From positions 1 through 64,000 of the IMG/VR virus record IMGVR_UViG_3300028581_000014: 64,000 bases of DNA. One strand, 5' to 3'. Position 1 is the first letter of the stretch, and every line of letters starts with the position of its first letter. The notes under the pieces are model-generated. The model was not told the origin of the DNA, did not search any database, and saw only the letters and a program-made list of their open reading frames with translations. The position numbers and the translations under genes were made by a program. This document shows, piece by piece, positions 7,728-19,622 of this stretch. This DNA comes from a virus.

Positions 7728-9155
7728 TTATACTGTAATCTCTGCGTACCTATCTGAGTCGATTACCGACATCATCATACCGTATGGTGTCATTTCTTTA
7801 CCAGCCAACAAGTTGTTTAATATATTAACTGAGAAACCACTAATCAATGCAGTCCCATATGTATCAAAATGTACTGGCTTATTGCTATCATTCCTAGAAT
7901 GAAGGTTCCAATAAACTAATTTTGGCATTTCATATCCAGCCTTAGCGTATAAGGCCTCAACCATATCTTGGGCTGTCCAACCACAAACACTTCCTGAGTT
8001 GAACTCCATATCGGATAGAACAACAATCATTGTTGGCATTTCTTCTGGTGCAACCTTAGATTCAACGGCCTTATTCAAAAGCATTTCAAACGCTGCTTGA
8101 ATATTGGTGTCGAAACCAACAGAACGACTTAGTTGTCTAATTCTTTCAGACAGGCTACCTTTAAGGTATTGTAAGGTTGGGTTAGACGTAAACGTGATAA
8201 ACGCATCTTTAAATGGGCCTACGTTACGTTCAGATATATATATGCCCAATGACAACGCAACATCTATACATGAAACCGTTTGACTGTTACCAGCGGAACA
8301 AGACATTGAACTAGAAACGTCAACCATTGGTAATAACCTTTCTTTATTACCTTCCATATAGTTAGGTAATGCGGTCCATTGTGCGTTAGCACCACGTGTA
8401 TCACCATACTTCAAGTTCTTGACGATATCATACGGATACACAGCACCAGCGTTAATCTTAGTCTCACCTTTTTCAAGTGAAGTCAAGTAACTACCGAAAC
8501 GAATACTATCATGACGACTAAATGTTTTCATCAAATCGCTCATTGCTTTTGATGGTAATTTAGCGTAGTCAATACTATCCCAAGACCTTGAACACATTAA
8601 TTGTTCAACAGTATTTGAGTTTTCAACCAAAAGCTTACGATAAGCCTTTGGTGTTAGATTTAAGTATTTTAAAAGCTTAACCGCTTGGGCCTTGGCTTCT
8701 TTATTCTTAGTGTTTGGGCGTGGCATCCACTTGGCGCAAAGTCCATTCTTATCAGCCAAGCCACTAGCAATTAACGCTAGGGCAGCACTTTCAAGCCTAG
8801 TACCGAACAATGAAAGTAGGTCATCCCACCTTCCAAACTCACTTATTAGGTGCAAGTTCTTAGCCAAAGAATCAGTTCTGTTATCGGCAAGATATTGGAT
8901 AATATCCTTAAAGATTTGGCGTTCACCAGCACCACCACGGATGTCACGAACCCAAAATAAAAGCTTCATAGCTGTTAGAGGGTCTTCGGCATATGCCTTA
9001 GTAAAGACGCTAATTAAACGACTTTTCTCTTTACCCCGCATAGCACCAAATTGGAAGAAAAGGTCTACGCAAGAATTTAGTGATGACGAATTGGTAACCA
9101 TACCATTCGTTGTATAAGAATCTCTTGTTTGCATTGCTCTAAGTAAAGTAGTCAT
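7728..9155 (-). CDS. DUF2828 / TROVE-like protein with von Willebrand A domain
   Basis: A 475-residue protein. The N-terminal two thirds are helical and include the family-typical FWVRDIRGGAGERQIF at about 67-82 and SEFGRWDDLL at about 105-114. The C-terminal third is a vWA domain with a complete MIDAS start, Asp279-x-Ser281-x-Ser283 (VDVSSSMS), and a later LSDMEF. The combination resembles Ro60/TROVE and DUF2828 proteins, which bind structured RNA in other systems. RNA binding here is an inference. It has a strong host-type promoter at 9185-9215. Its 3' end is the apparent target of the neighbouring homing endonuclease cassette. Confidence 0.85.
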   Translation of the reverse strand: MTTLLRAMQTRDSYTTNGMVTNSSSLNSCVDLFFQFGAMRGKEKSRLISVFTKAYAEDPLTAMKLLFWVRDIRGGAGERQIFKDIIQYLADNRTDSLAKNLHLISEFGRWDDLLSLFGTRLESAALALIASGLADKNGLCAKWMPRPNTKNKEAKAQAVKLLKYLNLTPKAYRKLLVENSNTVEQLMCSRSWDSIDYAKLPSKAMSDLMKTFSRHDSIRFGSYLTSLEKGETKINAGAVYPYDIVKNLKYGDTRGANAQWTALPNYMEGNKERLLPMVDVSSSMSCSAGNSQTVSCIDVALSLGIYISERNVGPFKDAFITFTSNPTLQYLKGSLSERIRQLSRSVGFDTNIQAAFEMLLNKAVESKVAPEEMPTMIVVLSDMEFNSGSVCGWTAQDMVEALYAKAGYEMPKLVYWNLHSRNDSNKPVHFDTYGTALISGFSVNILNNLLAGKEMTPYGMMMSVIDSDRYAEITV

Positions 9156-10855: not shown

Positions 10856-11068
10856 TTAAAACCCAAAACCAGTTAGTAACGTCATTATTATATATGATAT
10901 TGATAATCCTAAATAAAATAAAGCTATTGGCGACAACTTATACTTAACAATAACCTCATCGGTTGATACCATGAGTGCTTGTGCGAAGTAATAAGCGTGT
11001 CTAATCGTTACCAAGCATGATAAGACAAATAAACACAATAATGCTTTATATATTAATAATTCTATCAT
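10856..11068 (-). CDS. Small membrane protein, 70 aa
   Basis: Two hydrophobic segments (residues about 4-22 and 45-67) separated by a polar loop that contains STDEVIVKYK. No family is recognised. It sits between the Hc1 gene and the 241-residue gene with gaps of 2 nt on both sides. Confidence 0.72.
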   Translation of the reverse strand: MIELLIYKALLCLFVLSCLVTIRHAYYFAQALMVSTDEVIVKYKLSPIALFYLGLSISYIIMTLLTGFGF

Positions 11069-12036: not shown

Positions 12037-12651
12037 TTAAGCCTTTAACCAACCGTAGTATTTATTGGTCTTTAGTATTCTATCATCTAAGCCATTTGTT
12101 CCACCATTAATTTTCTTGGTAATAAGTAGGATTGTATCTGAATTAACACCTTTGCTTGCAATATCCCATAATTTATTTTTGTCAAAATAGAATATAGCCG
12201 ATTCGAATGAATAATCTAACGCAACCAACTCTGGGTCAACCATAATCTCTGGTTTATTTAAATGGTCAGATAATTGTTTATAATTGTTTTTACCTGTAGT
12301 TTGCAAGGCCCCACGACCACGAAATGTATATCCATCTTTAGAAGCTTCGTCACCATTACCCATTCTATTGGCATAAACCCTTGAACCAATCATCTCAGGT
12401 TTTTTAGCGTATTGTTCGGCTAAATTACCAGGAAAATATTTACCGAATACTTTTTTTAGTCCAGCAACTGAATAATTTAAGTTCTCACTAAATAAAGTAA
12501 ACTCACCTGTCTCATGTGATGTTTGTCCAAAAAAATGGGCGGCCATCTCAGGTGACATTTTATAATAAGCAGCAGCTGCTTTAAGTGTTTTTGGTCCAAA
12601 AGAACCATCTGCCTTAACACCAATCTTTTCTTGAAGTTTAATTAGACTCAT
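12037..12651 (-). CDS. GH19-type endolysin
   Basis: A 204-residue glycoside hydrolase family 19 (chitinase-like) lysozyme that would cleave the peptidoglycan glycan chain at lysis. The first ~30 residues resemble a short peptidoglycan-binding segment (LQEKIGVKADGSFGPKTL). The catalytic helix carries QTSHETGEF with Glu47. GYTFRGRGALQTTGKNNY (about 110-127) is the conserved substrate-binding segment. KKINGGTNGLDDR completes the family pattern. There is no signal peptide, so release depends on a holin. It is the last gene of the operon that starts with the histidine kinase at 14883. Confidence 0.92.
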   Translation of the reverse strand: MSLIKLQEKIGVKADGSFGPKTLKAAAAYYKMSPEMAAHFFGQTSHETGEFTLFSENLNYSVAGLKKVFGKYFPGNLAEQYAKKPEMIGSRVYANRMGNGDEASKDGYTFRGRGALQTTGKNNYKQLSDHLNKPEIMVDPELVALDYSFESAIFYFDKNKLWDIASKGVNSDTILLITKKINGGTNGLDDRILKTNKYYGWLKA

Positions 12652-12656
12652 TTTGT

Positions 12657-13334
12657 TTATTTATTTTTATCTGAGGCGTATTTAACACCCATTATTGTAC
12701 CAACAATACTAAACGCATTTGTTAATAAGATACCAAACATATTGCTCCACGTTGAGCCAATATTTTCCGTTTCAGTATCCATATATATCGCAACTAAGTA
12801 TAGTACGGTTGTTGTTATACCTACACCAATTATTAAATATAATGCGCTTCGCACTATGGTGTTGATTAATTCATTTTGTGTTCTTTTTTGTAATACATCC
12901 AAATCATTTTCAACAATTTTAAAAGCATTTTCAGCGTTTATCCGTGCTAATTCTGATTTTTTCATCTCTTCCACCAATTCGTAGCTCATGGTCTCATTTT
13001 GGCTTTTCCAAATCTGTAATTCTTGATTTTTTAACTCAATTTGGTTTTTTGATTCCTCAATATTTTTTAACGTATTTTGTAGCTCTGACATCATGTTCTG
13101 ATTCTCAGCATTTAGTGACGATAACTCAATATTTTGTTGTTGTATTTGTTTGGTGATTTCAAGACGCTTACGCCTACGTTCAATATCGAGCGCATAACAC
13201 TCATCAAGATACTTCTTAAATTCATCATCAGAATCTGATAATATTAACCGAATAATATTTCCCTCTAACCCAATATTTTTCTTTTTGAGTAGTTCAATTA
13301 AATTCTTCTTTGTTATATCATCAAATTGTATCAT
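12657..13334 (-). CDS. Coiled-coil membrane protein in the lysis operon (holin candidate)
   Basis: A 225-residue protein. Residues about 45-160 form a long coiled coil (LNAENQNMMSELQNTLKNI...). Two hydrophobic segments lie at the C-terminus (about 163-188 and 197-218). It has no signal peptide, so the coiled coil should face the cytoplasm and the membrane hairpin end the protein. Its ATG (13334) overlaps the stop of the response-regulator gene. It lies 5 nt upstream of the endolysin. It could be a holin whose cytoplasmic domain receives input from the response regulator; that link is an inference. Confidence 0.78.
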   Translation of the reverse strand: MIQFDDITKKNLIELLKKKNIGLEGNIIRLILSDSDDEFKKYLDECYALDIERRRKRLEITKQIQQQNIELSSLNAENQNMMSELQNTLKNIEESKNQIELKNQELQIWKSQNETMSYELVEEMKKSELARINAENAFKIVENDLDVLQKRTQNELINTIVRSALYLIIGVGITTTVLYLVAIYMDTETENIGSTWSNMFGILLTNAFSIVGTIMGVKYASDKNK

Positions 13335-13765
13335 TACTTATATATCTTAAATGGAGCTGTTCTATTTTTATAGCTTGGGTAGTCTTTCTTAAATTCTTCT
13401 AACCTAGGTTCAATCTCGTCTGATTTAACTATCCAAAACTGTGCACCAGCTTGCAATGCTTTACTTTGCTCTTCAATTTCATTTGATGAAGATATGATAC
13501 CAATAACCACATGGTTACCATACTCGTAATTAATACGTCTTACCAATTCAATACCATCAAAGGATGAGCCGACCATATTTAAATCGACAAATACGCATTC
13601 TGGTTTTTCTTCTGGGGTTGCTTGCCAATTTTTAAACAGTTCACCAGCCTCATCAGCACTCTTTAGGCTTATTAACGATAACGTTATATCTAATAGACTG
13701 CAAGAATCTTCGAAAACTAAGTGGAATAAGTCTTCATCGTCCACCAACATTATTGATTCAATCAT
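13334..13765 (-). CDS. Single-domain response regulator (CheY-like)
   Basis: A 143-residue receiver domain with no output domain. The acidic pocket is D9-D10-E11 (MLVDDED), the phospho-acceptor is Asp61 (VFVDLNM), the switch Ser/Thr is at about 92-93 (GIISSS) and the conserved Lys is Lys114 (WIVKSD). It overlaps the histidine kinase gene by 4 nt (ATGA) and the downstream membrane-protein gene by 1 nt (TAATG), so the three are translated together. Without a DNA-binding domain it must act by binding a protein, plausibly the neighbouring membrane protein or the kinase. Confidence 0.92.
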   Translation of the reverse strand: MIESIMLVDDEDLFHLVFEDSCSLLDITLSLISLKSADEAGELFKNWQATPEEKPECVFVDLNMVGSSFDGIELVRRINYEYGNHVVIGIISSSNEIEEQSKALQAGAQFWIVKSDEIEPRLEEFKKDYPSYKNRTAPFKIYK

Positions 13766-14883
13766 TTTTCATTATTTAGTGTAATTATTATTTTCGTTCC
13801 GATACCCAATTTTTCTGACATCATTTTAAATCCGTGCTCTTCTAGTATTACCACACTTATATTTAATCCTAAACCAGTACCAGTTTCTAATTGGCCTTCT
13901 TTACGCATATATGGCTTAGAATATTGAAGGAATTCATCTTGTGACATCCCACGTCCATTATCTTGTATTATTATCCTGTTAGGGTCATCAGAATAAACCT
14001 TAACAAATCTTGTATTGCTATCGTTATATCTTAAACCATTCCTTATTAAATTATCTATTGAAGTGCAAAACAAAGCTTCATTAACCATTATCGTTGGTAA
14101 GCTATCATCCAGAATTACTTGTGATGAATACGCTGTTGTTGATAAGAAGCCAGTTAATATTTCTTTTATGTTACACTCAGTTTTTGTCATCAAAGCATCT
14201 TTCTTAACTAGATTGGTAAATTCATATACCCCCTTATAAACTTTTTGTGTATGTTTTAAACCCTCATTAATTAATTTAAACGGAGTCTCAATCTTTAACT
14301 TTTTCATTTCCGTTTTTTTAAGGATACGTTCAAGTGAACTTACACCCCTAGGTATATAAATATTTATACCTGAATGCATATCATGTCTTATTATCTTGGC
14401 CGCATGTTCAAGATATGTTTTTTTCTTTTCAACTTCAGCTAATGCTTTAATAATATTCGTTACATCCTGACTTATTGTAATATAACCTAATAGTTTACCG
14501 TTAATATCAAACTCACCTTTTATATGTATATCAATATGAAATATGTTTCCATCTTTACCTTTATTTATTAATATACCGTTCCAAATCTTTTTATCCTCAA
14601 GTACCTTTTTATACATCTCACTAAACATCTCTTTTGGTTGTTGACCAGAATTTAAAATATTATGGTCCTTACCCAATACTTCGTTTAATTTCCAGCCAGA
14701 TATATCCTCAAATTGCTTATTAACATATGTTATTTTACCATTTGAATCTGCTTTAGTTATAATAACCGCTTGGTTAATAAATGACTCTAATAGGTGTAAA
14801 TTGCTATTACTAAAAGACCTATAATTGACCAGTGCGTATATTAATAATTTAAACTCAAATAAGATATTTTTAATAAATTGCAT
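13762..14883 (-). CDS. PAS-domain sensor histidine kinase
   Basis: A 373-residue kinase. A PAS domain spans about 30-145 (AVIITKADSNGKITYVNKQF, GWKLNEVLGKDHN). The phospho-acceptor His167 lies in IIRHDMHSG. The ATPase domain (about 235-370) has the N box (IDNLIRNGLRYND), the G1 box (IQDNGRG, Asp308) and the G2 box (TGTGLGL). The N-terminal hydrophobic stretch (1-20) is weak, so it is probably cytoplasmic and senses through the PAS domain. It is first in a four-gene operon with the regulator, a membrane protein and the endolysin, under a late-type box at 14902-14910. It could have been acquired from a host, although the base composition looks like its neighbours. Confidence 0.93.
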   Translation of the reverse strand: MQFIKNILFEFKLLIYALVNYRSFSNSNLHLLESFINQAVIITKADSNGKITYVNKQFEDISGWKLNEVLGKDHNILNSGQQPKEMFSEMYKKVLEDKKIWNGILINKGKDGNIFHIDIHIKGEFDINGKLLGYITISQDVTNIIKALAEVEKKKTYLEHAAKIIRHDMHSGINIYIPRGVSSLERILKKTEMKKLKIETPFKLINEGLKHTQKVYKGVYEFTNLVKKDALMTKTECNIKEILTGFLSTTAYSSQVILDDSLPTIMVNEALFCTSIDNLIRNGLRYNDSNTRFVKVYSDDPNRIIIQDNGRGMSQDEFLQYSKPYMRKEGQLETGTGLGLNISVVILEEHGFKMMSEKLGIGTKIIITLNNEK

Positions 14884-18862: not shown

Positions 18863-19333
18863 CTAACGAGTTGTTAATGTTAAGGCTAAAACAATAGATG
18901 GTAACACTACAGAGCCAACAAAGCCTATTATTTTAAGGGTTTTTTGCTTTCTAACCTCTCTTTTTAATCGCTTAATTGTTTCTTCATATATCTTTATTTC
19001 AGAACCCTTATTTTCAAGCAATAATCTTAAATTATCAGCTAAGTTTTCTTGGTTGGCCGATTTATGTTGAAGAATCTTTATTTCTTCAAGCTGTAGTTCA
19101 ATGGTATGACTCTTTAGTGAATCACTAATAACGTAGTTATTTATTATGCTATCAGCAATATCTTTTTCTAAAATTGCAATTAAGATAATCTTAGCATCAG
19201 CTAAGCTCATCTCAATTGTTGTATCACCATTATTTACGTGTGTCTGTACTCTTGGTGTTGTTTTCGAGATATTTTGTGATACCATCGGCAACGCCATTAG
19301 CAGACAACCTATTAACATTATTAGGTATCTCAT
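18863..19333 (-). CDS. Exported coiled-coil protein, outer-spanin or u-spanin-like candidate, 156 aa
   Basis: The N-terminus MRYLIMLIGCLLMALPMVSQN is a signal peptide; LIGC also fits a lipobox, although the hydrophobic run before the Cys would be short. Residues 60-130 are coiled coil. Residues 133-153 (IIGFVGSVVLPSIVLALTL) form a membrane segment near the C-terminus. A secreted or lipidated N-terminus plus a C-terminal membrane anchor is the layout of one-piece spanins, while the 104-nt out-of-frame overlap with the upstream membrane/coiled-coil gene recalls Rz/Rz1 pairs. Role in outer-membrane disruption at lysis is an inference. Confidence 0.65.
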   Translation of the reverse strand: MRYLIMLIGCLLMALPMVSQNISKTTPRVQTHVNNGDTTIEMSLADAKIILIAILEKDIADSIINNYVISDSLKSHTIELQLEEIKILQHKSANQENLADNLRLLLENKGSEIKIYEETIKRLKREVRKQKTLKIIGFVGSVVLPSIVLALTLTTR

Positions 19334-19622
19334 TTTTTCTATTTTTTAGGCTATCTAATTTTGATTGAATCAAAGCTATTTCAATCATTGTTATTTCTAT
19401 TTCCTTTTGAATAACAACCAATTTAGTATCTAGTATCTTATTGACTAGAATTAAGCTATCATTCTTTTTGGTAATTAATATATTTTGCGCTTCTAGGGCT
19501 TTAATTTCAGATTTTTTATAATCTATATTACTACGCTGACCGAAAAAGAAGCTAATTATTAAACCAATAGACAAGACTGCTATAAAGACAAGTTTTATGT
19601 CAATTTTTTTAATGTCTATCAT
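19230..19622 (-). CDS. Membrane-anchored coiled-coil protein, inner-spanin-like candidate, 130 aa
   Basis: A single N-terminal membrane segment (residues about 10-28, LVFIAVLSIGLIISFFFG) is followed by a periplasmic coiled coil (35-95). This type II topology is that of inner-membrane spanins. The last 35 residues are coded in a stretch shared, in another frame, with the next gene (19230-19333). It does not lie beside the endolysin, which is at 12037. It could alternatively be a structural membrane protein. Confidence 0.65.
   Translation of the reverse strand: MIDIKKIDIKLVFIAVLSIGLIISFFFGQRSNIDYKKSEIKALEAQNILITKKNDSLILVNKILDTKLVVIQKEIEITMIEIALIQSKLDSLKNRKNEIPNNVNRLSANGVADGITKYLENNTKSTDTRK

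Follow-up and report, generated by a model that had tools for sequence, protein, structure and literature searches.

A histidine kinase, a receiver-only response regulator and a coiled-coil membrane protein (CC) recur in a constant order in 112 non-redundant viral loci, where their genes mostly overlap translationally, and this recurrence is far beyond chance. The genes flanking the three vary widely between loci and, since the order is kept though the flanks change, kinase, receiver and CC constitute a three-gene module, which we are confident is a dedicated one. Within the collections searched, the module family is essentially virus-specific. As a tentative reading of the whole, we propose a two-component system exclusive to viruses, whose sensors are exchangeable and whose membrane output is fixed. 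It would set the time of host lysis post-translationally, and lytic phages would use it to read redox or envelope state before they burst the cell.

The timing of phage lysis is usually explained by the accumulation of holin and by antiholins. In T4, lysis is controlled by the holin T together with the antiholins RI and RIII, which act by direct binding and without a phosphorelay (PMC8385771). A survey of jumbo phages mentions only a divergent receiver, which is not tied to two-component systems (PMC7824862), and in the literature that was searched, which covered few subscription papers, no phage-encoded two-component system of such a kind was described.

Sequences and selection of loci

The window, that is, the whole stretch of DNA that was analysed, comprises 64,000 nucleotides (positions 1 to 64,000 of IMG/VR virus record IMGVR_UViG_3300028581_000014) and is part of a 142-kb virus record. 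Viral contigs were scanned with the receiver and with CC; relatives of CC numbered 247, and with alignments at least 535 relatives of CC and at least 556 of the receiver were obtained. The 112 non-redundant loci were drawn from 236 loci, and the receiver-seeded loci are a subset that was chosen independently of CC. Hydrolases were labelled using profiles built from those genes of the loci that are of GH19, M15, amidase-like or phrog_3000 type.

Genes of the window

The region 12037-14883 contains the four open reading frames given by the initial annotation, all on the minus strand. The features are:

13762..14883 (-): PAS histidine kinase, 373 aa; PAS at about 14455-14766, His167 at 14383-14385, HATPase_c at about 13774-14058
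13334..13765 (-): receiver-only response regulator, 143 aa; Asp61 at 13583-13585, Lys114 at 13424-13426
12657..13334 (-): CC, a 225-aa putative membrane output protein; N-terminal head, long coiled coil at about 12864-13226, C-terminal transmembrane hairpin at about 12675-12863
12678..12749 (-): second transmembrane helix (TM2) of CC, residues 196-219; nearly invariant, with polar or small residues along one face
12037..12651 (-): GH19 endolysin, 204 aa; an associated neighbour of the module, not an obligatory part

The coupling described earlier can be read directly from the sequence: the kinase and regulator genes overlap by 4 nt (ATGA), the regulator and CC genes overlap by 1 nt (TAATG), and CC and the endolysin are separated by a 5-nt gap. 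A T4-type gp23 major capsid gene lies at 138-140 kb of the source virus record; this gene, with the virus-only occurrence of the module family, rules out a bacterial contig mistaken for phage. A Shine-Dalgarno-like motif was found in only 3 of 51 genes and leaders are A-rich, as is presumably the case in viruses of Bacteroidota.

Two other parts of the window are recorded here. The gene at 7728-9155 (-) belongs to a phage RNA-binding protein family (phrog_850, 1.7e-142; DUF2828/DUF7788, with a weak VWA match). About 4 kb upstream of the kinase, two overlapping genes at 18863-19333 and 19230-19622 (-) have a layout like that of a spanin pair, without a lipobox; one product has an N-terminal transmembrane segment and a coiled coil, and the other a signal peptide.

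Kinase and receiver

The kinase was described as a complete PAS histidine kinase, and Pfam finds both PAS (PF13426, 2e-12) and HATPase_c (PF02518, 1.7e-10), with the H (H167), N (N278/N282), G1 (D308-G310-G312) and G2 (G337/G339) boxes all present. Across 116 related kinase cores the residues of these boxes have at least 99% identity, and the motif of the phospho-acceptor helix, RHDMHSGINTYxPRG, is essentially invariant; the Pfam HisKA model does not match this helix. The 143-aa regulator is likewise receiver-only, as annotated: Response_reg (PF00072, 6.5e-11) is its sole Pfam domain, and it has no DNA-binding output domain. Residues D9, D10, D61, S92/S93 and K114 are all found in the window protein and are invariant in 17 diverse relatives. 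A receiver fold is predicted for the regulator and resembles solved receivers, the closest structures being RPA3017, a regulator of a Deinococcus bacteriophytochrome and further receivers, Rcp1 among them. At the level of sequence, the paired genes thus encode a two-component system, with a kinase that has His, N, G1 and G2 and a receiver that has the acid pair, Asp, Ser/Thr and Lys.

The N-terminal sensor regions range from about 70 to 520 aa across the kinases of the family. They include PAS domains with or without two transmembrane anchors, 22 sensors with a signal peptide and one transmembrane segment (a periplasmic region), and a few others. Because the sensor regions are diverse and the output protein is constant, inputs vary while the output stays the same. 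Two kinases lie upstream of a single receiver in some loci, an arrangement that would let two inputs converge on one receiver. A 205-aa secreted coiled-coil protein with a signal peptide is encoded between two kinases feeding one receiver in L024, L023, L097, L128 and their relatives, and is possibly an extracytoplasmic partner of the second kinase.

The kinase of the window is without a clear transmembrane segment. The best PDB matches to its PAS domain are 3ewk, 2gj3 and 8dik (E 8e-20 to 6e-12), with YVN, IWNG and IN aligned, and the domain is similar, also at the conserved positions N, W and N, to the FAD redox PAS domains of MmoS, NifL and Aer, which are flavin redox sensors. It is a cytoplasmic PAS domain that probably serves as an FAD redox sensor. 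A small-molecule, redox or light signal had been suggested for it; since the domain is closest to FAD redox PAS domains, redox or oxygen is the better guess, and light is less so. Other members of the family have quite different sensors, which are partly extracytoplasmic.

The membrane protein

The two hydrophobic segments of CC, which start at residues 156 and 199, agree with its annotation as a coiled-coil protein with a C-terminal membrane hairpin. Two segments were scored in 111 of 112 relatives and three in the remaining one. The AlphaFold2 model comprises a small head at the N-terminus, one helix of 148 residues and another at 190-222, with the overall arrangement at low confidence (pTM 0.32). 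Mean entropy is 0.17 bits in TM2, compared to 1.1-1.6 bits in TM1 and the coil, and TM2 is equally conserved in receiver-seeded loci. Its G, T, N and S residues lie along a single face (shuffle P 0.003, which overstates independence because the loci are related), and TM2 resembles a helix that packs or that lines a pore.

No significant match to CC was obtained with Pfam holins (the best, Phage_holin_9, had E=0.045, below the cut-off) and no match with PHROG holins, results that do not support membership of CC in any known holin family. Kinship with three neighbouring families of small holin-like membrane proteins (A3-A5) is likewise unsupported, profile comparison having given no homology, and weak PHROG matches (phrog_1544 and others), which mostly track the coiled coil, were set aside. 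A structure search with the CC model returned one real match, an uncharacterised protein of an uncultured phage with 58% identity.

Conservation and distribution of the module

The receiver and CC genes overlap by 4 nt (61 loci) or 1 nt (38 loci) in 99 of 108 loci. A kinase lies directly upstream of the receiver, within 50 nt or overlapping, in 93 of the 97 loci where a kinase was found; the exceptions to kinase adjacency are mostly contig ends, and only L063 and L222 have enough DNA yet are without an adjacent kinase. The TM2 signature of CC was found just downstream of the receiver in all 57 non-redundant receiver-seeded loci, and this co-occurrence, together with the overlapping genes, upholds the idea of a kinase and cognate receiver dedicated to CC. 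Co-divergence of receiver and CC (r 0.55) exceeds that of receiver and GH19 or of CC and GH19 (0.29 and 0.25), and is supportive only. The four-gene order that had been reported is kept in part: its first three genes recur in the 112 loci, which contradicts a gene order found only here, but the endolysin is not constant.

In L079 and L083, CC is present without kinase or receiver, beside structural-looking genes; the downstream context is as in L081 and L082, which keep both, and there is no receiver anywhere in the record of L083. These two loci represent an apparent loss of the two-component pair.

When 84,980 species genomes were searched with the CC alignment, one relative was found; its contig also carries PhoH-like and terminase-like genes, and we read it as a binned phage contig. 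No recognisable relative of the receiver or CC was present in 50,697 deposited phage records, and kinase matches among cultured phages were PAS-only. Among 21 large records tested, 14 had a gp23 capsid gene and 20 had exactly one receiver of the module family. A full-length phage-encoded DnaK is found near the module in about 25 loci, for example L099:11694-13559 (+).

Association with lysis genes

The last gene of the region is a GH19 endolysin, as had been claimed (phrog_181 endolysin, 4.7e-53; PF00182, GH19, 5e-6, over the cut-off). It is without a hydrophobic segment, and for this reason such a cytosolic endolysin needs a holin partner. In the lineage of the window, a two-TM hairpin protein adjoins an endolysin without signal sequence, which is a holin-like layout; elsewhere the neighbourhood varies.

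Counted by position from -12 to +12 with the GH19, M15 and phrog_3000-type profiles only, peptidoglycan-hydrolase genes occupy 33/85 (39%) at -1 and 14/88 (16%) at +1 from the module, and far from it 0/522 at +6 to +12 and 1/245 at -6 to -12. Four classes of hydrolase occur beside the module, namely GH19, M15 peptidase, amidase-like and phrog_3000/PG-binding. A hydrolase lies no more than two genes away in 54 of 82 testable loci, in at least six arrangements, and in the other 28 (about a third) no recognised hydrolase is present at that distance. On the tree of receiver and CC there are at least 14 changes in the presence of a near hydrolase and at least 22 changes of arrangement, so many that the link between module and hydrolase does not go back to a single inherited synteny. 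In 18 virus records of 110-322 kb, the starts of the receiver and the nearest GH19 gene are less than 5 kb apart in 12, versus 1.24 expected under random placement (nominal P 5e-11, which is too small because the loci are related); in four large records a GH19 gene is 18-58 kb away. The endolysin is directly downstream in part of the family; in other members it precedes the module, is encoded on the opposite strand, or is separated from it by several genes or a long distance.

The module had been placed inside a lysis operon. A statistical tie to lysis genes stands (39% at -1 versus none at +6 to +12), but the endolysin is not a fixed member, and a fixed four-gene lysis operon is ruled out because the endolysin is inconstant across loci. 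We consider a role of the module in lysis moderately likely.

The T4 holin (T) profile was absent in 11 of 11 records tested, and no phrog_20 holin was found in the records tested save one sub-threshold match. In some loci a further small membrane protein is encoded between CC and the endolysin. In the window, a 70-aa protein with two hydrophobic segments is encoded downstream of the endolysin at 10856-11068 (-), and a gene of equal length is in the same place in L010-L012. This protein, or another small membrane protein, may be a separate holin.

Discussion

Because the regulator is without a DNA-binding output and is co-translated with CC, the simplest interpretation is that the receiver works on CC through direct contact. 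The kinase would autophosphorylate on H167 and pass the phosphate to D61 of the receiver, which, either phosphorylated or unphosphorylated, would dock on the cytoplasmic part of CC, at its head or its coiled coil; E24-G25-N26 in the conserved head, or the stretch R57-L58-T61, would be candidate sites. The docked receiver would alter the packing of the conserved transmembrane hairpin, and the hairpin would act as, or on, a holin, with a presumed holin or antiholin action. Release of the cytosolic endolysin encoded by the adjoining gene would then be advanced or delayed by the sensed condition, where both the sign of the response and the nature of the signal are conjectural. We give an even chance to the proposal that a phosphorelay gates CC as a holin-like or antiholin-like membrane protein and so sets endolysin release, the gating step being its presumptive part.

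The module may instead be dedicated to membrane signalling with an output other than lysis, for instance superinfection exclusion, regulation of the host's envelope or energy physiology, or persistence in cells that grow slowly, and lysis genes would adjoin it because the two share a neighbourhood of late membrane/envelope genes. This would accommodate the third or so of loci without a recognised hydrolase nearby, the neighbours that include DnaK, phosphoesterases and other host-interaction genes, and the lack of homology between CC and holins. However, hydrolase enrichment is limited to the nearest genes, with zero beyond five, and the link recurs in many arrangements and with four unrelated hydrolase classes, and we consider a non-lysis output unlikely.

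A narrower form of the gating proposal is that CC is itself the pore-forming holin and that the two-component system triggers the hole directly. The two-TM hairpin of all members, the nearly invariant TM2 with its polar/small face, the position of CC as sole membrane gene directly adjoining the endolysin in the window lineage, and the T4-type holin not being found in 11 records are all consistent with such a role. In other lineages, however, a small membrane protein distinct from CC is encoded beside the endolysin in addition to CC, and a protein of 225 aa with a coil of more than 100 residues is unusual for a holin; that CC forms the hole itself appears rather improbable. That the kinase and receiver work in some host or phage pathway that has no relation to CC, with CC a coincidental neighbour, might be suggested by L079 and L083, which carry CC without the pair, but is highly implausible given the 57/57 co-occurrence, the 99/108 translational overlaps and the many genomic contexts.

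Gating of CC by the phosphorelay, the reading that we prefer, can be set against known systems. The module resembles canonical two-component systems with a single-domain receiver (CheY, Spo0F, Rcp1) in having a PAS/HATPase kinase with H, N, G1 and G2 and a receiver with D-D, D, S and K, but it is virus-encoded and essentially virus-only, its acceptor helix is unmatched by HisKA, and a membrane hairpin protein is its fixed partner. As in T4, whose gp23 is found in part of the module viruses, a sensed condition would shift lysis timing, here through a membrane protein beside the endolysin; unlike T4, the module has a kinase and a receiver, and the T holin profile was not found in its records (11/11). 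LytSR-LrgAB/CidAB of Staphylococcus aureus and CckA-ChpT-CtrA control of gene transfer agent release are host-encoded and act on transcription through a DNA-binding regulator. In them too, holin-like proteins or lysis genes lie downstream of a two-component system, whereas the module is virus-encoded and without a DNA-binding domain. The quorum-sensing lysis switch VqmA of Vibrio phage VP882, a temperate plasmid-prophage, is a single transcription factor with no phosphorelay; it is similarly a phage-encoded sensor that decides lysis, but the module consists of a kinase, a receiver and a membrane protein.

The presence of the module in hundreds of large uncultured bacterial viruses, most often beside lysis genes, suggests that these viruses may sense conditions before timing the killing of the host. 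If this is true, lytic phages would measure host or environmental state with bacterial-type signalling, a second sensing route would be added to T4-style lysis inhibition, and CC would represent a new family of kinase-controlled membrane proteins.
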